DNA of 32,789 bases from Actinospica acidithermotolerans (GTDB taxonomy: Bacteria; Actinomycetota; Actinomycetes; Streptomycetales; Catenulisporaceae). Shown piece after piece: positions 1,621 to 31,273 of this stretch. Numbering within the stretch: the stretch's first letter is position 1; each line of letters opens with the position of its first letter. The translations under genes were made by a program, and so were the position numbers. The stretch is from positions 1-32,789 of the forward strand of contig NZ_JAGSOH010000083.1 in assembly GCF_018139625.1 (NCBI RefSeq). The letters run 5' to 3'. The notes under the pieces are model-generated. The model worked only from the letters and a program-made list of their open reading frames with translations, was not told the origin of the DNA and did not search any database.

Positions 1621-2406
1621 ATGACCGCTATGACTGTGGACACCGCCGCAGCTCCGGCGCGCCTGCGTCGCGGGCTGACGGTGAAGGGCTTCTTCGCTCT
1701 GGCCGCCATGCACCTCAAGCTGATGCGGCGGGAGCCGGGGGCGTTCGTGACGATCCTGCTGCCGGTGGTGCTGCTGACCATCTTCGGCAGCATCGCGAGC
1801 GCGAAGACGCCGCAGGCGGACCTCGGGGGACGCAGCGTGCTCGACGTATACGTGCCGACGATTGCCGCGATGACGCCGCTGATGGTCGCCTGCACGGTGC
1901 TCCCGGGCGCGATGGCCTCGTTCCGTGAACGCAACACGCTGCGACGCTTCCAGGTCAGCCCGGTGCCGCCGGGCGGAATGCTTGCCGCGCTTGTGAGCGT
2001 GCTGGCCGCGTTCGCCGCGCTCAGCGTCGTGCTGATCGTGCTTCTCGGCACGCTCGTGTTCGGCGCCAAGCTGCCTCCGAACCTCGGCGCCGTGATCAGC
2101 GCGTTCGCGCTCGGGTTCGTGGCGGTCATCGCCGTCGGCATGGTGCCGGCCGCGGTCGCCACCACGAACACGATGGCCAACGGCATCGGGATCCCCTTCA
2201 TGATCCTGAACTTCTTCTTCGCCGGCCTGTACATCCCGATCGCGCAGATGCCGCACGTCATGCAGACCATCGGCGAGTACGTGCCCTTCGGCGCGGTGAT
2301 GGACGCCTGGTCCGGTACCGGGGCGTTGTGGCAACACCTTGCGGTACTGGCCGGTTACACTGTGCTCGGGGGACTCGCCTCCGCCAAGCTCTTCCGCTGG
2401 GAGTGA
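1621..2406 (+). CDS. ABC-2 type transporter permease
   Basis: This 261-residue membrane protein has about six hydrophobic segments, including FVTILLPVVLLTIFGSI, the long AALVSVLAAFAALSVVLIVL stretch, and a C-terminal helix ending in the charged FRWE. This matches the DrrB-like ABC-2 export permeases in length and topology. AAAGGAG at 1606-1612 gives a clear ribosome binding site for ATG 1621. The preceding ATPase ends 2 bp upstream. The kinase gene starts 5 bp downstream, with its binding site overlapping the end of this gene, so the three are co-transcribed and probably translated in a chain. An ABC exporter followed by a NarL-type two-component pair is a common arrangement for sensing and responding to antibiotics or envelope stress. 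The ligand is not deducible. Confidence 0.92.
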   Translation: MTAMTVDTAAAPARLRRGLTVKGFFALAAMHLKLMRREPGAFVTILLPVVLLTIFGSIASAKTPQADLGGRSVLDVYVPTIAAMTPLMVACTVLPGAMASFRERNTLRRFQVSPVPPGGMLAALVSVLAAFAALSVVLIVLLGTLVFGAKLPPNLGAVISAFALGFVAVIAVGMVPAAVATTNTMANGIGIPFMILNFFFAGLYIPIAQMPHVMQTIGEYVPFGAVMDAWSGTGALWQHLAVLAGYTVLGGLASAKLFRWE

Positions 2407-2411
2407 GAGCA

Positions 2412-3677
2412 GTGCCGCCGACGTCGCCGATCGAGGTGCGCGAGCGCCGGATCGACCTGGCCTTCGCGGTCGTCCCGTACGTCGCGCTCGCCGTCTCGCT
2501 GATCCTCTCGCTCAGCACCGAGCAGCCGCTGACGGAGCGGTTCGTCGCCTGGTCGGTCGGCCTGTCCGGCCTGGCAGCCGTCTGGTTGCTCACGATGCGG
2601 CCGCGGCACGGTGAGCAGAGCGAGCACGTGGCGAAGTCCGTCGTGTTCTACGTCGGGCACTTGGCGCTGATCGGCGCGCTGATCATCGTCAATCCCTTCT
2701 TCGCGATCTTCGGCTTCACCGGCTACCTCTTCGTGCAGTACGTGCCCGGCCGCTGGAAGGTGGCCGGCATGGTGGTCAACGCCGGGCTGATGGCGCTGTC
2801 CGAGATCGGCGGCGCGGCTCAGCTCACCGGCAGGGGGTGGATCCCGTACATCGGGCTGTTCGCGGCGAACGTCTTCATCGTCGGCGCGATGACCAGGGCC
2901 GCGATGGACGAGGATCGGCGCGCCGAGCAGCGCACGCGCACCATCGACGAGCTCTCCGAGGCGAACCAGCGGCTCGAGCAGATGATGGAGGAGAACGCGG
3001 GGCTGCACGCGCAGCTCGTCGCGCAGGCCCGGGAGGCAGGAGTCTTCGACGAGCGCCAGCGGATGGCCGGCGAGATCCACGACACGCTCGCGCAGGGCCT
3101 GACCGGGATCCTCGCGCAGCTCGAAGCGGCCGAGCTGGCCGACGGCGACGAAGCGCGCCGCCGTCGTCACCTCGGCCTGGCGAAGGATCTCGCCCGCGAC
3201 AGCCTCGCCGAGGCGCGGCGCTCCGTGCAGGCGCTGCGTCCGCAGAAGCTGGAGGGCGCGCGGCTGCCCGACGCGGTGCGGACGCTCGCTGAGGAGTGGA
3301 AGCAGACCTCCGGCGTTCCCGTGCGCGTCGAGGTGGATGGCGAGGCGACGCCGTTGCAGCCCGCGCTGGAGGTCGTCCTGTTCCGCGCCGCGCAGGAGGC
3401 GCTCGCCAACATCGCGAAGCACGCGCAGGCCACGCGCGCCGGCATGACGCTGACGTATATGCACGATCAGGTCTCACTCGACGTGCTGGATGATGGCAAG
3501 GGCTTCGACGCGGGGCGGACGAACGGCGACGGCTACGGGCTCGCGGCGATGCGCCAGCGGCTCCGGCAGGTCGGCGGCGGCCTGGAGATCGAGAGCACAC
3601 CCGGCGACGGGACGACTGTGAGCGCGTGCGTCCCGGCGCTGTACCGGGCCGAACCGATGGAGGCACGGGAGTCGTGA
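2412..3677 (+). CDS. Sensor histidine kinase, HisKA_3 (NarL/DesK) type
   Basis: This is a membrane-bound sensor kinase that would phosphorylate the regulator starting at 4010. Residues about 15-160 contain roughly five or six membrane helices with little extracellular loop, so the signal is probably sensed in or near the membrane. A coiled-coil-like segment (about 170-215, DELSEANQRLEQMMEENAGL) leads to the phosphoacceptor His223 in GEIHDTLAQG, typical of HisKA_3. The ATPase domain has the N box around Asn333 (EALANIAKHA), the G1 box DVLDDGKGFD (357-366) and the G2 box GYGLAAM (about 374). GTG 2412 is chosen because GGGAG precedes it at the end of the permease gene. The last ~12 residues (LYRAEPMEARES) lie beyond the normal end of the ATPase domain. 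They are encoded by the first half-copy of the 56-bp repeat that follows, so the tail looks repeat-derived. Its TGA overlaps the GTG of the first mini-ORF. Confidence 0.93.
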   Translation: MPPTSPIEVRERRIDLAFAVVPYVALAVSLILSLSTEQPLTERFVAWSVGLSGLAAVWLLTMRPRHGEQSEHVAKSVVFYVGHLALIGALIIVNPFFAIFGFTGYLFVQYVPGRWKVAGMVVNAGLMALSEIGGAAQLTGRGWIPYIGLFAANVFIVGAMTRAAMDEDRRAEQRTRTIDELSEANQRLEQMMEENAGLHAQLVAQAREAGVFDERQRMAGEIHDTLAQGLTGILAQLEAAELADGDEARRRRHLGLAKDLARDSLAEARRSVQALRPQKLEGARLPDAVRTLAEEWKQTSGVPVRVEVDGEATPLQPALEVVLFRAAQEALANIAKHAQATRAGMTLTYMHDQVSLDVLDDGKGFDAGRTNGDGYGLAAMRQRLRQVGGGLEIESTPGDGTTVSACVPALYRAEPMEARES

Positions 3678-3733
3678 CGGAGCGGCGGGTCAGGCTGTAC
3701 CGGGCCGAACCGATGGAGAGAGGGGAGTCGTGA
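3674..3733 (+). CDS. Mini-ORF 1 of coupled ladder (19 aa)
   Basis: This runs from a GTG that overlaps the kinase TGA to a TGA overlapping the next GTG. The predicted peptide is V/M-TERRVRLYRAEPMERGES. It is preceded by GGAGGCACGGGAG. Its start resembles the regulator N-terminus and its end resembles the kinase tail. Whether the peptide or only the act of translating it matters is unknown. Confidence 0.4.
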   Translation: MTERRVRLYRAEPMERGES

Positions 3734-3789
3734 CGGAGCGGCGGGTCAGGCTGTACCGGGCCGAACCGATGGAGGCACGGGAGTCGTGA
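3730..3789 (+). CDS. Mini-ORF 2 of coupled ladder (19 aa)
   Basis: GTGA overlaps occur at both ends. The peptide after the start is TERRVRLYRAEPMEARES. Its second half is identical to the kinase C-terminus at both DNA and protein level, pointing to a recent two-unit (112-bp) copying step. Confidence 0.4.
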   Translation: MTERRVRLYRAEPMEARES

Positions 3790-3845
3790 CGGAGCGGCGG
3801 GTCAGGCTGTACCGGGCCGAACGGATGGAGGAAGGGGAGTCGTGA
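3786..3845 (+). CDS. Mini-ORF 3 of coupled ladder (19 aa)
   Basis: GTGA overlaps occur at both ends. The peptide after the start is TERRVRLYRAERMEEGES. The purine tract GGAGGAAGGGGAG first appears in this unit. Confidence 0.4.
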   Translation: MTERRVRLYRAERMEEGES

Positions 3846-3901
3846 CGGAGCGGCAGGCCAGGCTGTACCGGGCCGAACCGATGGAGGAAGGGCAGCCGTG
3901 A
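3842..3901 (+). CDS. Mini-ORF 4 of coupled ladder (19 aa)
   Basis: GTGA overlaps occur at both ends. The peptide after the start is TERQARLYRAEPMEEGQP. From this unit on, the fourth residue after the start is Gln, as in the regulator. Confidence 0.4.
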   Translation: MTERQARLYRAEPMEEGQP

Positions 3902-3957
3902 CGGAGCAGCAGGTCAGGCTGTATCGGGCCGAACCGAAGGAGGAAGGGGAGCCGTGA
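3898..3957 (+). CDS. Mini-ORF 5 of coupled ladder (19 aa)
   Basis: GTGA overlaps occur at both ends. The peptide after the start is TEQQVRLYRAEPKEEGEP. It is among the most diverged units, yet length, start, stop and purine tract are intact. Confidence 0.4.
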   Translation: MTEQQVRLYRAEPKEEGEP

Positions 3958-4013
3958 CGGAGCGGCAGATCAGGCCGCTGTGGGCCGAACCGATGGAGGA
4001 AGGGGAGTCGTGA
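3954..4013 (+). CDS. Mini-ORF 6 of coupled ladder (19 aa)
   Basis: GTGA overlaps occur at both ends; the last one is the start of the response regulator. The peptide after the start is TERQIRPLWAEPMEEGES. The first 22 bases match the regulator gene start exactly. Its middle (AGGCCGCTGTGG) also resembles the regulator (AGGCTGCTGATTGTGG), not the CTGTACCGGG of the other units. Confidence 0.4.
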   Translation: MTERQIRPLWAEPMEEGES

Positions 4014-4648
4014 CGGAGCGGCAGATCAGGCTGCTGATTGTGGACGACCATCCGATCGTGCGCGACGGCCTGCGCGCGGTTTTCGAGAGCGAGCCCGCGT
4101 TCGAGGTCGCGGGCGACGCGGCGGACGGCGTCGAGGCGGTGGACCGCGCGGTGGCCCTTGGCGTGGACGTCGTGCTGATGGACCTGCGGATGCCGCGGAT
4201 GGGCGGCGTCGAGGCGATCCGGGTGCTGCGCGAGAAGGCGCCCGGCATCAGGGTTCTGGTCCTCACGACCTTCGACAGCGACTCGGACGTGCTGCCCGCG
4301 GTCGAGGCCGGCGCCACCGGGTACCTGCTCAAGGACGCGCCACGCGACGAACTGCTGCGCGCGGTCCACGCGGCGTACCTCGGCCAGGCCGTGCTCGCGC
4401 CGTCGGTCGCGCAGAAGGTGCTCGGCCGCGTCCGCACGCCGGCTGTGCCCGTGGAGCAACTGACGGACCGCGAGCTCAAGGTGCTCGCGTTGGTGGCCTC
4501 GGGCACGACCAACCGCGAGGCCGCGAAGCAGCTGTTCATCAGCGAGGCGACGGTCAAGACGCATCTGCTGCACGCCTACGCCAAGCTGGGTGTGCGCGAC
4601 CGGGCCGCGGCCGTCGCGGAGGCCTACAAGCGCGGCCTGCTCGGCTGA
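4010..4648 (+). CDS. NarL/LuxR-family response regulator
   Basis: This 212-residue DNA-binding response regulator is the partner of the kinase upstream. The receiver domain shows the acidic pair Asp12-Asp13 (LLIVDDHP), the phosphoacceptor Asp58 (LMDLRMP), a Thr in VLVLTTFD and Lys108 (LLKDAPR). A LuxR-type helix-turn-helix begins near residue 151 (LTDRELKVLALVASGTTNRE), with the recognition region ISEATVKTHL. GTG 4010 is the start because TERQIRLLIVDDHP is the normal N-terminus for the family and GGAGGAAGGGGAG lies just before it. That start is the seventh GTG of the 56-bp ladder, so translation is expected to be coupled to the last mini-ORF. It probably controls the ABC operon; the palindromes at 605-637 are candidate targets. 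Confidence 0.95.
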   Translation: MTERQIRLLIVDDHPIVRDGLRAVFESEPAFEVAGDAADGVEAVDRAVALGVDVVLMDLRMPRMGGVEAIRVLREKAPGIRVLVLTTFDSDSDVLPAVEAGATGYLLKDAPRDELLRAVHAAYLGQAVLAPSVAQKVLGRVRTPAVPVEQLTDRELKVLALVASGTTNREAAKQLFISEATVKTHLLHAYAKLGVRDRAAAVAEAYKRGLLG

Positions 4649-4724
4649 TCACCCGCGAGTCGTGCCTCGGCTAAGCTCGACGTGCGGTGCTGCCCCCGAC
4701 CCGAGACGTGACCCTGGAGCGACC

Positions 4725-5589: not shown

Positions 5590-8500
5590 ATGCGCGTCGC
5601 CATCCTCGGGACGCTCGAAGTCCGCGCGGCGGACGGGCTCGTCGAGATCCCCGGCCGCCGGCTTCGCGCTCTGCTGATCCGCCTCGCGCTCGACCCCGGC
5701 CGCGTCGTCTCGGCCGAGCGGCTGATCGACGACCTCTGGCAGGACGAACCGCCGAACGCCGCGCACAACGCGCTGCAGGCACTGGTCTCCCGACTGCGCG
5801 CGCTCGTCGGCCGCGCGACGATCGAGCAGGGCGGCGGCGGTTACCGGCTCAACGTGCGCCCCGAGGACGTCGACCTCGTCCGCTTCGAGAATTACGTCCG
5901 CCACGGTCGCGCGTGCCTGGAGTCCGGCGACGCCGCCTCCGCCGCGCAGAGCCTGCGCGATGCGCTCGCGCTCTGGCGCGGTACGCCGCTCTCCGACGTC
6001 GAGGGAATGCCGTTCGCCGAGCCGGAGACCGCCGCGCTCGACGAGCAGCGTGTCGCAGCCGTCGAATACCTCGTGGACGCGCTGCTCGCGCAACCGGCCC
6101 CCGCGGCCGACCTGCTGCCCGAGCTCGAGCAACTGCGCATCGCCTTCCCGTTCCGCGAGGGCCTGCACGCGCGCTATATGAAGGTGCTCTACGCGCTCGG
6201 CCGCCAAGCCGAAGCCCTGGCCGCGTACGAGGAGCTGCGCGCCACGTTGGCCGGCCGGCTCGGCGTCGACCCGTCGCCGGAGCTGACGAAGCTGCATCTC
6301 GCGATGCTCCGTCAGGAGCCTGCGGCCGCCCCCGTCGCGCCCATCGTGCCAATTCCGCTGCGCCAGGTCGCCCCGCGTCGCGGAAACCTGCCCGCGCAGC
6401 TCACCAGCTTCATCGGCCGCGAATCCGAGCTCGAACTCGTCAGCGAGCTGCTGTGCAACGCCCGCCTCGTCACGCTCAACGGCCCGGGCGGTGCCGGAAA
6501 GACGCGGCTCGCGCAGGAATGCGGTGCACGCCTCAGCGAGCTAGCTCCGGACGGAGTGTGGTTCGCGCCGCTCGCAGCGGTGGCAGACGGAGCGCACGTG
6601 GCGCAGGCGGTGCTCACGGCGCTCGGCGGCGAGAACACGCTCACCCTCGCCGAGATCGCGATCGAGGGCGTCGATACGGTGGACCCGCGCGAGCGCCTGC
6701 ATTCGCTGGTCGCCGAGCGCAGGATGATCCTGATCCTGGACAACTGCGAGCACGTGCTCGACGCGGTGGCAGACCTCGTCGACAAGCTGCTCGCGGCCGC
6801 GCCGGGAGTCAGGGTACTGGCGACGAGCCGCGAACCGCTCGCGCTGACCGGCGAGACGCTCTGCCCGGTCGCCTCGCTCGCACTCCCGCCGGAGGCCGCG
6901 ACTGACTTAACGGTCGAGGCGCCGCCGGCCGAATCCGCCGCCGAGTACGCGGCGGTCCGGCTGTTCGTCGAGCGCGCGGGCTCGGTGCGCCCCGGCTTCC
7001 AGCTCACGGCCGCGAACGCCGAGCCCGTCGTCCGCATCTGCCGCGCCCTCGACGGCATCCCGCTCGCCATCGAACTCGCCGCCGCGCGGCTGCGCTCGCT
7101 TACGGCACAGCAGGTCGCGGACCGGCTCGACGACCGCTTCCGGCTGCTGTCCAGCGGCAGCCGAACCGCGCTGCCGCGGCACCAGACGCTGCGCGCGATC
7201 GTCGACTGGAGCTGGGACCTGCTCACGCCCGGGGAGCGCACGGTCCTCGCGCGGCTGTCCGCCTTCGCGGGCGGCGCGATGCCCGAGGCCGCGACGCACG
7301 TATGCGGCACCGAGCCCGACGAGGTGATCGACGTGATCGCCTCCCTCGTCGACAAGTCGCTGGTCGTGGCCCAGGAGGACGACGCGGGCGAGGTGCGCTA
7401 CCGCCTGCTCGAAACGGTCCGTGCCTACGCTGCCGACCGTCTGGAGGAGTCCGGCGAACGCGCCCGCGTCCAAGATGCGCACGCCGCGCACTTCGCCGCG
7501 CTCGCCGAGCGTGCCGAGCCGGAGTTGCGGACTGCGGACCAGCTGCGCTGGATCACCCGGATCACGCTCGAACACGACAACTTCAGCGCCGCGCTGCGGC
7601 ATTGCGTGGCCGGCGAAGACGTCGTGACCGCGCTGCGCATCTTCCATGGACTGCTCTGGTTCTGGATGATGCGCAACTTCGAGAAGGAAGCCACCGAGTG
7701 GGCTGAGGAGATCGGCGCGCTGGTCGAGCGCTCGACCCCCGAGATCCCCGCCGAGCTCACCGAGGCGCAGCTGCTCTGCACGCTGATGCGGAAGATCGTG
7801 CGCGCGACGCAGAAGAACGCCGACGACGCCGAAGCCGTCGGCAAGGTCCTGCTCGAGGGCCTGCCCGAGGACACCTCCGGCTTCCGCCACCCCCTGCTCG
7901 CCCTCGCCCGGCCCGTCGCCAGCGTGCTCATCACCCGCGGCGCGGACGCGGCCCGCACGCGCGGCCGCCTCGAAGCCCTCGCCGGCCATCCCGATCCCTG
8001 GGTGCGCGCAGCCCGGTACTCGTTCGCCGCGCTGCTCGAACTCAACGACGCGAACCCCGAGGCCGCCGAGCAACTGCTGCTCACCGGCTACGCGCGCTTC
8101 CGCGAAATCGGCGAGCGGCAGGGGCTGATGTTCACGCTCGTCGTCCTCACCGAGTTCGCGCTGGCCAAGGGCCGGTTCCGGGACGCCGTGGACTACGCGG
8201 AGGAGGCGCACGCCCACGCGACCGACGGGATGACCCGGGAGTCGGGCTCGATGCTGCTGATCAGGGTCGGCCTCGCGCGCAGCCACGCCGGGGAGATGGA
8301 GCAGGGCCGCCGGACGATGGAGCGGGCGGTCGCCACCGCCGAGCGCTGCGGCGAGTTCTCCGACGCGGCGACCGGGCACGCCGAGCTCGCCGCCCTCGCG
8401 TTCCGGGCCGGCGACCGGGCCGAGGCGCGCCGCCGACTGAGCAGCGCGACCGAGCTGATCGAGGCGCACTCCGAGCGCCGCGACGTGAGCATGGCCCGCT

Positions 8501-8862
8501 CGAACACCCTGGCCCGCCGCGGCTACCTGGCCATCCTGGACGGCGACTTCGACATCGCCAGGGACTGCTTCCGGCGGGCCGTGGACGTAGTGTGGGATGG
8601 TCCGTTCCTGAGCTTCATGTCCGGGCTCGACGAGGTGCTGCGCGGTCTGGCCGCCCTCGCCGCCGCGGAGTGCGACCACGTCCGCGCGGCGGAGCTGCTG
8701 GGCGCGGCCTTCGCGGTGACCGGCATGGAGAACCAGGCCTCCTACGCCGATCCGCACACCCGCGCAGCCGCCCTCGCCGCCCTCGGCCAGGACGCCTTCG
8801 ACGCCGCGTTCGCGCGCGGCCGCCGCCTGCCCAAGGCGGACGTGCTCGCCCTCGCACCGTAG
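5590..8862 (+). CDS. AfsR/SARP-family regulator with NB-ARC and TPR-like regions
   Basis: This 1090-residue regulator starts with an OmpR-like winged helix (residues about 1-95, MRVAILGTLEVRAADG, RRLRALLIRLALDPGRVVS). A bacterial transcriptional activation (BTAD) domain follows (about 100-240). An STAND/NB-ARC ATPase comes next: Walker A GPGGAGKTR at 298-306, Walker B LILDNCEHVLD at about 381, and the GIPLAIELAAARL motif near 490. The rest, about 620-1090, is alanine-rich helical sequence consistent with TPR-like repeats. The architecture matches the AfsR group that controls secondary metabolism or stress genes in actinomycetes. No biosynthetic cluster is visible nearby, so the target is unknown. 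The binding site before ATG 5590 is weak; reinitiation from the sulfurtransferase 7 bp upstream is possible. Confidence 0.92.
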   Translation: MRVAILGTLEVRAADGLVEIPGRRLRALLIRLALDPGRVVSAERLIDDLWQDEPPNAAHNALQALVSRLRALVGRATIEQGGGGYRLNVRPEDVDLVRFENYVRHGRACLESGDAASAAQSLRDALALWRGTPLSDVEGMPFAEPETAALDEQRVAAVEYLVDALLAQPAPAADLLPELEQLRIAFPFREGLHARYMKVLYALGRQAEALAAYEELRATLAGRLGVDPSPELTKLHLAMLRQEPAAAPVAPIVPIPLRQVAPRRGNLPAQLTSFIGRESELELVSELLCNARLVTLNGPGGAGKTRLAQECGARLSELAPDGVWFAPLAAVADGAHVAQAVLTALGGENTLTLAEIAIEGVDTVDPRERLHSLVAERRMILILDNCEHVLDAVADLVDKLLAAAPGVRVLATSREPLALTGETLCPVASLALPPEAATDLTVEAPPAESAAEYAAVRLFVERAGSVRPGFQLTAANAEPVVRICRALDGIPLAIELAAARLRSLTAQQVADRLDDRFRLLSSGSRTALPRHQTLRAIVDWSWDLLTPGERTVLARLSAFAGGAMPEAATHVCGTEPDEVIDVIASLVDKSLVVAQEDDAGEVRYRLLETVRAYAADRLEESGERARVQDAHAAHFAALAERAEPELRTADQLRWITRITLEHDNFSAALRHCVAGEDVVTALRIFHGLLWFWMMRNFEKEATEWAEEIGALVERSTPEIPAELTEAQLLCTLMRKIVRATQKNADDAEAVGKVLLEGLPEDTSGFRHPLLALARPVASVLITRGADAARTRGRLEALAGHPDPWVRAARYSFAALLELNDANPEAAEQLLLTGYARFREIGERQGLMFTLVVLTEFALAKGRFRDAVDYAEEAHAHATDGMTRESGSMLLIRVGLARSHAGEMEQGRRTMERAVATAERCGEFSDAATGHAELAALAFRAGDRAEARRRLSSATELIEAHSERRDVSMARSNTLARRGYLAILDGDFDIARDCFRRAVDVVWDGPFLSFMSGLDEVLRGLAALAAAECDHVRAAELLGAAFAVTGMENQASYADPHTRAAALAALGQDAFDAAFARGRRLPKADVLALAP

Positions 8863-25804: not shown

Positions 25805-26029
25805 CGCTCCGGCGGCCTTCCCGCCTGTCGCCGCCTTACTACGGCCTCCGCGCCCGTCCCCGCCTTACTTCGGCCTTCCCGTCCGTCCCCGCCACCCGCC
25901 TTGCTTCGGCCTTCCCGCTTGTCCCCGCCTTACTTCTGCCTCCGCGTCCGTCCCCGCCTTACTTCTGCCTCCGCGTCCGTCCCCGCCGTGCTTCGGCCTT
26001 CTGCCCGTTCCCGCCTACCTACGGCAGCG
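25805..26029. repeat. 29-bp tandem repeat running into the end of map
   Basis: Units beginning CGCCTTACTTC or CGCCTTACTAC start at 25832, 25861, 25897, 25926, 25955 and 25984. All are 29 bp, with one seven-base insert at 25890-25896. A degenerate copy precedes them at about 25805. A partial copy (CGCCTACCTACGGCAG) at 26013 contains the map stop codon. The units at 25926 and 25955 are identical. It is pyrimidine-rich on the plus strand and uninterrupted by spacers, so it is not CRISPR. Confidence 0.93.
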
Positions 26030-27941: not shown

Positions 27942-28054
27942 GCGTCGGTCGCGTCCCCGCGTCAGGCGTCGGTCGCGTCCCCGCGTCAGGCGTCGGTCGC
28001 GTCCCCGCGTCAGGCGTCGGTCGCGTCCCCGCGTCAGGCGCGTCCTCGCGTCAG
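27942..28054. repeat. 24-bp tandem repeat, four identical copies
   Basis: Units beginning GCGTCGGTCGCGTCCCC start at 27942, 27966, 27990 and 28014 and are identical over 24 bp. A 17-bp partial copy follows at 28038 and a related sequence (CGCGTCGATCGCGTC) precedes at 27920. Perfect identity suggests very recent expansion. The 24-bp length keeps a frame open on both strands, but no gene is supported. Confidence 0.95.
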
Positions 28055-31130: not shown

Positions 31131-31151
31131 TGCCCGACGGCAGGCCGATCG

Positions 31152-31258
31152 GGCACTCAATGCGGCTGAAGCACTCAAAGCGGCTGGGCACTCCATGCGG
31201 CTCAGGCACTCAAAGCGGCTCGGGCACTCAAAGCGGCTCGGGCACTCAATACAACAGG
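31152..31258. repeat. 18-bp tandem repeat, about six copies
   Basis: GGCACTCAAAGCGGCTCG-type units start at 31152, 31170 (17 bp), 31187, 31205, 31223 and 31241 (degenerate end). The units at 31205 and 31223 are identical. The array begins about 20 bp after the 74-bp repeat, so 30910-31273 is almost entirely repetitive and holds no gene. Confidence 0.92.
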
Positions 31259-31273
31259 TCCCTCAATATCGCC

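Follow-up and report, generated by a model that had tools for sequence, protein, structure and literature searches.

Between a sensor histidine kinase gene and its response regulator gene, Actinospica acidithermotolerans carries a tandem array made of 7.1 copies of a 56-bp unit (contig NZ_JAGSOH010000083.1 of assembly GCF_018139625.1; the whole stretch analysed, 32,789 nucleotides from positions 1 to 32,789 of the forward strand, is referred to as the window hereafter). The repeat unit is the gene junction itself, in which the head of the regulator is fused to the tail of the kinase at a leucine codon, CTG. This array is probably a lineage-specific minisatellite; it would have formed when an ordinary kinase/regulator junction, with its 4-nucleotide (nt) overlap, was duplicated in tandem. 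The coordinates of the features are collected in Table 1.

Tandem Repeats Finder (TRF) gave the array a period of 56, 91% matches, 0% indels and a score of 624, the highest among the 27 rows of the window. The initial annotation had described seven GTG codons at exact 56-bp steps, each within a GTGA, and both the sequence and TRF confirm this (3674, 3730, 3786, 3842, 3898, 3954 and 4010). Its arithmetic, 56 = 60 − 4, also holds: there are six mini-open reading frames (mini-ORFs), each of 19 codons plus a stop and each overlapping the next start, and the final GTG is the start of the regulator. Each unit is composed of the 12 last kinase codons (or variants of them), the GTGA overlap and the first regulator codons. 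Mini-ORF 2, for example, reads VTERRVR-LYRAEPMEARES up to its stop, the regulator head reads VTERQIR-LLIVDD, and the kinase tail reads VPA-LYRAEPMEARES up to its stop. Since the unit is a copy of the junction, the start, the stop, the Shine-Dalgarno (SD) tract and the frame are inherited as one package. The copies are arranged head to tail and the unit exceeds 10 bp (56 bp × 7.1), as in a minisatellite. The divergence among the units is graded: 0–3 differences are seen among units 1–3, while unit 7 differs from the others at 7–9 positions. A search of the organism's own genome (E ≤ 0.001) placed the array unit at a single site. The frames are closed in turn: a stop occurs every 168 bp in each of the three frames, with the frames rotating, so that a ribosome must terminate to cross the array, as the initial annotation had it.

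The junctions of two congeners, G001 and G002, are simple: each has a single ATGA and no such array. In G002, the kinase tail VPALYFHERNQGNEAGQA ends with its stop in the ATGA and is followed by the regulator head MTDQEQPIRLLIVDD; in G001, the kinase tail is longer and the junction is again ATGA. The kinase tails and regulator heads of the congeners can be aligned with the sequences that border the array. In the stretch examined from each congener, TRF reported a single row, of roughly two copies, and the 24-bp row of G001 lies within its long kinase tail, which indicates that the genus does undergo small duplications at this place. We also compared the best 80 of 517 relatives, obtained by a protein search of genome records among which the nearest neighbours of the window genome may be lacking, and scored their junction overlaps by a nearest-start rule. 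The two genes overlap in 64 of the 80, in 23 cases by 11 nt, in 22 by 8 nt and in 19 by 4 nt; 14 have no overlap, and in 2 no kinase was seen. For 9 of the 14 non-overlapping relatives, an earlier ATG would give an 11-nt overlap. A ladder, that is, a chain of mini-ORFs linked by overlapping stops and starts, was found at the kinase/regulator junction in none of the 80 relatives examined (TRF rows, with a period of at least 17 in the ladder test). Six of them have short arrays in contact with the junction, 7 rows in all, with periods of 12, 15, 24, 15, 27, 16 and 21; none of these periods leaves a remainder of 2 on division by 3 (2 mod 3 hereafter), and chaining is thus impossible. At locus L083, an in-frame 15-bp × 2.9 array contains ATGA. 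The ladder test yielded one-link matches only, off the junction, at the loci L073 and L082. At the former, from a metagenome-assembled genome of Streptosporangiaceae, a perfect 17-bp × 2.2 repeat (4632–4668) lies over the regulator stop and produces a six-codon GTGA-linked mini-ORF. From these comparisons, the array appears to be new in this lineage, while the junction overlap itself is common in the relatives.

A short series of events may account for the array. The first duplication would have joined the CTG leucine codon by the regulator start to the CTG leucine codon by the kinase end. Every new copy would then be an in-frame fusion of the regulator head with the kinase tail, closing in the next GTGA, and subsequent slippage or unequal exchange would have supplied more copies. 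Because both CTGs keep the phase of their genes, which share 4 nt, the period is necessarily 2 mod 3; thus, the fitting frames need no design. The CTG-to-CTG distance is 56 for the unit and 167 in G001, and the corresponding distance is 71 in G002, where the regulator codon is CTC.

How unusual a ladder is was examined with random 56-bp genome segments repeated seven times (n = 5000). When at least five links were required and links of both the NTGA and TGATG types were scored, a ladder appeared in 27% of these on the plus strand and in 47% on either strand. The idea that a ladder is improbable in itself was rejected on this result. The repeat itself is far beyond chance; a ladder, given a 56-bp repeat, is not. 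What sets the array apart is therefore not the ladder but the nature of its unit, a gene junction that carries an SD-like tract of its own.

The genome is rich in other repeats. In a 1516-kb sample of it (contigs 1–60, first 14.5–20 kb, and 20 picked stretches, 19 of them from contigs with a HisKA_3 match; hence a non-random sample), 22 of the 93 TRF rows with a period of at least 20 and at least three copies have a period of 2 mod 3. Among these 22 rows, the window array forms 6 links, L237 5, L249 3 and L202 2, and L200 and L245 form one each. L202 lies between a long plus-strand ORF and a long minus-strand ORF, and L249 has a mere 1-amino-acid ORF ahead of its first stop. L237 (G000:C386, 1789–2135) is a 62-bp × 5.6 array in the gap between divergent ORFs, with five TGATG-chained mini-ORFs of about 20 codons; the last of them continues in frame into a downstream ORF whose product looks secreted. 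Among all the listed ladders, those with a single link included, only that of the window is flanked on either side, in the direction of the chain, by an open stretch exceeding 150 codons (582 before and 212 after). No ladder was found in 800 kb of G002. Array places with a period of at least 20 number 246 in the 1516 kb (78 with at least three copies), versus 68 in the 800 kb of G002 (13).

HisKA_3 matches number 20 in the genome, and a regulator motif follows the stop within 450 nt in 14 of these cases. An array spans or adjoins the junction in two of the 14 kinase-regulator loci, the window (L160) and L154. At L154 (G000:C390, 2129–2299), a 30-bp × 5.7 array at the kinase/regulator junction extends the regulator N-terminus in frame with VEDARPV-type repeats; judged from the ends of the matches, this region is 153 nt shorter in both congeners, and no such repeat is visible by eye in G002. 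That two junctions show different frame outcomes favours a general expansion process over selection for mini-ORFs. Elsewhere, L161 has an 18-bp two-copy row deeper in the regulator, and L166, which is without a regulator motif, has one at +274.

The possible effect on translation depends on the signals ahead of the GTGs. The initial annotation placed a purine-rich SD tract before each of them. Such a tract is indeed present at all seven, each accompanying a GTGA stop/start overlap, as in known 4-nt overlaps; however, the strengths are unequal. The predicted pairing with the anti-SD is −12.4 to −13.0 kcal/mol at four of the seven GTGs, including that of the regulator, and a middling −9.7 kcal/mol at the other three (3674, 3786 and 3898), which falls short of the 5% tail of 2000 random window positions (−10.3; median, −5.0). 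The steps thus need not be equal. The predicted unpaired probability is 0.75 for the last SD-like tract and only 0.29 for the first; as the last tract is predicted to be mostly unpaired, fresh initiation at 4010 is possible. Ribosomes from the kinase would pass the array only by serial termination and reinitiation, helped by the SD-like tracts, while fresh initiation at 4010 could supply the regulator directly. The number of restarts before the regulator is seven (six mini-ORFs, then 4010), rather than the six counted previously. With seven restarts, a passage of 50% at each would let less than 1% of the ribosomes arrive, and a passage of 90% at each would let about half arrive. The net effect would likely be a weaker and more variable translational link between kinase and regulator, with an altered ratio of the two, tolerated rather than selected.

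A different function would be a ribosome relay of seven restarts, through mini-ORFs whose number varies readily by slippage, so that the kinase:regulator ratio drifts or is phase-varied from cell to cell while both proteins stay unchanged. We regard this as unlikely. As for the encoded peptides, the six mini-ORFs gave a pN (nonsynonymous) of 0.144 and a pS (synonymous) of 0.038, that is, a pN/pS of 3.75, computed from pairs that are not independent. Functional peptides were rejected, as the sequence is unconserved.

Several points weigh against the reading as a duplicated and tolerated junction. About 18–28 substitutions have accumulated without breaking a single link, where 10.9% of single substitutions would be link-breaking; the probability of this under random draws is 0.125 or 0.039, according to the count adopted. 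Indels are also absent from the array. The unbroken links and the lack of indels leave room for weak selection on the chain. In addition, the CTC of G002 in place of the regulator-side CTG means that the proposed microhomology is drawn from the window genome and G001. The contrast in repeat density is rough, with contig starts and picked stretches set against regular steps in G002. The explanation is drawn from sequence, with one genome compared per species.

The first of these points also bears on the possibility that the array is a selected translation attenuator, in which the number of units sets the kinase:regulator ratio and differs among isolates. All six links are intact despite the divergence (P 0.039–0.125), and an SD-like tract stands at every GTG, strong at four of the seven. 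Moreover, Mycobacterium tuberculosis has a repeat array between rnc and fpg1 (ETR-F/VNTR3239) whose length has been linked to the expression level (PMC2734929), which makes copy-number effects plausible here. Nevertheless, 27% of random 56-bp repeats assume the ladder shape. That the four GTGA columns are free of variation is within chance expectation (P = 0.25), as is the longest stretch of invariant columns, 11 in number (P = 0.25). Both congeners and the 80 relatives examined are without such an array. We therefore hold selection for attenuation to be possible, with the odds clearly against it, and favour the duplicated junction.

The array might instead act on the regulator at the DNA or RNA level, as an internal promoter, as protein-binding repeats or as an RNA structure. 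Promoter activity has been reported for the senX3-regX3 intergenic region (PMC4213456). In the window, however, the scans gave no support to a promoter or an RNA structure: neither a sigma-70-type promoter nor a terminator was matched in 3400–4300 (promoter models of the sigma-70 type only), the folding z-score of −0.92 does not point to a structured RNA, and nothing in the window reached the Rfam gathering score. Such a role is improbable.

Another explanation to be weighed is that the array, or its copy number, is an artefact of short-read assembly. The assembly is a draft of 422 contigs, units 1 and 3 are identical, and the longest exact repeat within 3601–4100 is 73 bp. On the other hand, units 2 and 4–7 are each distinct, and most of the array is thus no assembly echo of one unit. 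With exact repeats of at most 73 bp and only one identical pair of units, ordinary 150-base reads could order the copies. We consider an artefact very unlikely, while the copy number could still be wrong in a draft of this kind.

Table 1. Features of the kinase/regulator junction and its array in the window
Feature	Coordinates	Strand	Description and basis
Tandem array	3638..4033	+	7.1 copies of 56 bp, each a copied kinase/regulator junction; Tandem Repeats Finder and unit list
Kinase-side GCTG	3638..3641	+	Contains in-phase Leu CTG 3639-3641; here the first duplication presumably had its 5' limit
Regulator-side GCTG	4030..4033	+	Contains in-phase Leu CTG 4031-4033; here the first duplication presumably had its 3' limit
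Unit 1	3638..3693	+	True kinase C-terminus LYRAEPMEARES with its stop, and first GTGA; congener kinase tails aligned
Mini-ORF 1	3674..3733	+	VTERRVRLYRAEPMERGES, stop
Mini-ORF 2	3730..3789	+	VTERRVRLYRAEPMEARES, stop
Mini-ORF 3	3786..3845	+	VTERRVRLYRAERMEEGES, stop
Mini-ORF 4	3842..3901	+	VTERQARLYRAEPMEEGQP, stop
Mini-ORF 5	3898..3957	+	VTEQQVRLYRAEPKEEGEP, stop
Mini-ORF 6	3954..4013	+	VTERQIRPLWAEPMEEGES, stop
Regulator SD-like tract	3995..4007	+	GGAGGAAGGGGAG; variant forms ahead of every earlier GTG; duplex energies
Sensor histidine kinase	2403..3677	+	HisKA_3 and HATPase_c (Pfam on 2328-3674); stop TGA 3675-3677; start uncertain
Response regulator	4010..4648	+	Response_reg and GerE (Pfam, ORF list); GTG 4010 the likeliest start

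Two start candidates exist for the kinase within the longest mechanical ORF, which begins at 2328: GTG 2403, with a duplex energy of −3.3 kcal/mol, and GTG 2412, with −9.0 kcal/mol. An ABC-2 permease ORF (Pfam) lies upstream, and its stop overlaps GTG 2403 as GTGA in the kinase phase. The kinase may start at this GTG, while GTG 2412 has the better predicted SD; the three genes, from the permease to the regulator, may belong to a single operon. For the regulator, the SD energy is −12.4 at GTG 4010 versus −9.9 at the mechanical in-frame GTG 3980. Farther downstream, 5590–8862 encodes a large BTAD-type transcriptional activator with AAA and TPR regions. Three other repeats of the window were also recorded: a 24-bp unit × 4.1 with 100% matching at 27942–28040, which is probably young; a 29-bp × 6.8 array with 76% matching and higher-order periods of 65 and 94 bp at 25813–26016; and nested tandem repeats of 18, 35 and 53 bp at 31149–31266.

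SenX3 and RegX3 of M. tuberculosis, the pair with which the present one can be compared, belong to kinase and regulator classes other than HisKA_3/GerE. The initial annotation knew of no described system of serial repeat-coupled mini-ORFs between two-component partners, but mycobacterial interspersed repetitive units (MIRUs) between senX3 and regX3, and MIRU ORFs coupled at −4 nt, have already been published (PMC4213456, PMC12548453). Between senX3 and regX3 there are three units of 77 bp, or two of 77 bp and one of 53 bp (PMC4213456); the array goes back to Supply et al. 1997, as cited in PMC12548453, PMC4213456 and PMC7884335, and its repeats may control the translation of genes downstream (PMC7884335). 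According to a 2025 review, MIRUs seem to insert at start codons, with their own ORF coupled at −4 nt (PMC12548453). They are described as dispersed, at 41 places in H37Rv, and apparently mobile.

The likeness to the window array lies in tandem units between a sensor kinase and a regulator, and in unit lengths (77, 53 and 56) that each fit the 2 mod 3 rule for chaining at −4 nt. The window unit has the size of about 40–100 bp, the small ORF and the −4 nt spacing described for MIRUs (56 bp, 19 codons, GTGA), with coupling predicted from the sequence; this likeness is one of architecture. Such an architecture could suggest that a mobile MIRU-like element entered at the start codon and was subsequently amplified. 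Unlike a dispersed MIRU, however, the window unit occupies one place (E ≤ 0.001), and unlike a foreign inserted element, it is composed of the C-terminal codons of the kinase and the N-terminal codons of the regulator. The mobile element was rejected on these two grounds, and its probability is minimal.

Ordinary 4-nt overlap pairs (PMC6728339; PMC12548453) resemble the window junctions in having ATGA or GTGA with an SD ahead of the downstream start, the state found in the two congeners; as described, such pairs have one overlap, whereas the window array has seven in series. Coupling efficiency is reported to be highest at −4 to +3 nt and to be influenced by the SD (PMC12548453), and in tests on Haloferax volcanii and E. 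coli, 13 of 14 overlapping gene pairs proved to be strictly coupled in translation (PMC6728339). ETR-F/VNTR3239 likewise consists of tandem repeats between two genes, and in relatives that do not belong to the complex these genes are separated by a few bases to 54; it differs in its complex unit (55 and 79 bp), and a mini-ORF chain is not apparent in its description (PMC2734929). No earlier ladder built from the gene junction itself turned up in our literature searches. The window array would offer a natural seven-step object for distinguishing reinitiation by the same ribosome from upstream translation merely opening RNA structure, a question left open by PMC12548453. Our verdict is that it is an analogue, of local origin, of an architecture already known: simple duplication can make a mini-ORF chain out of a coupled gene overlap, which provides the frame and the signals ready-made, and this would constitute a second route to the MIRU-type arrangement.

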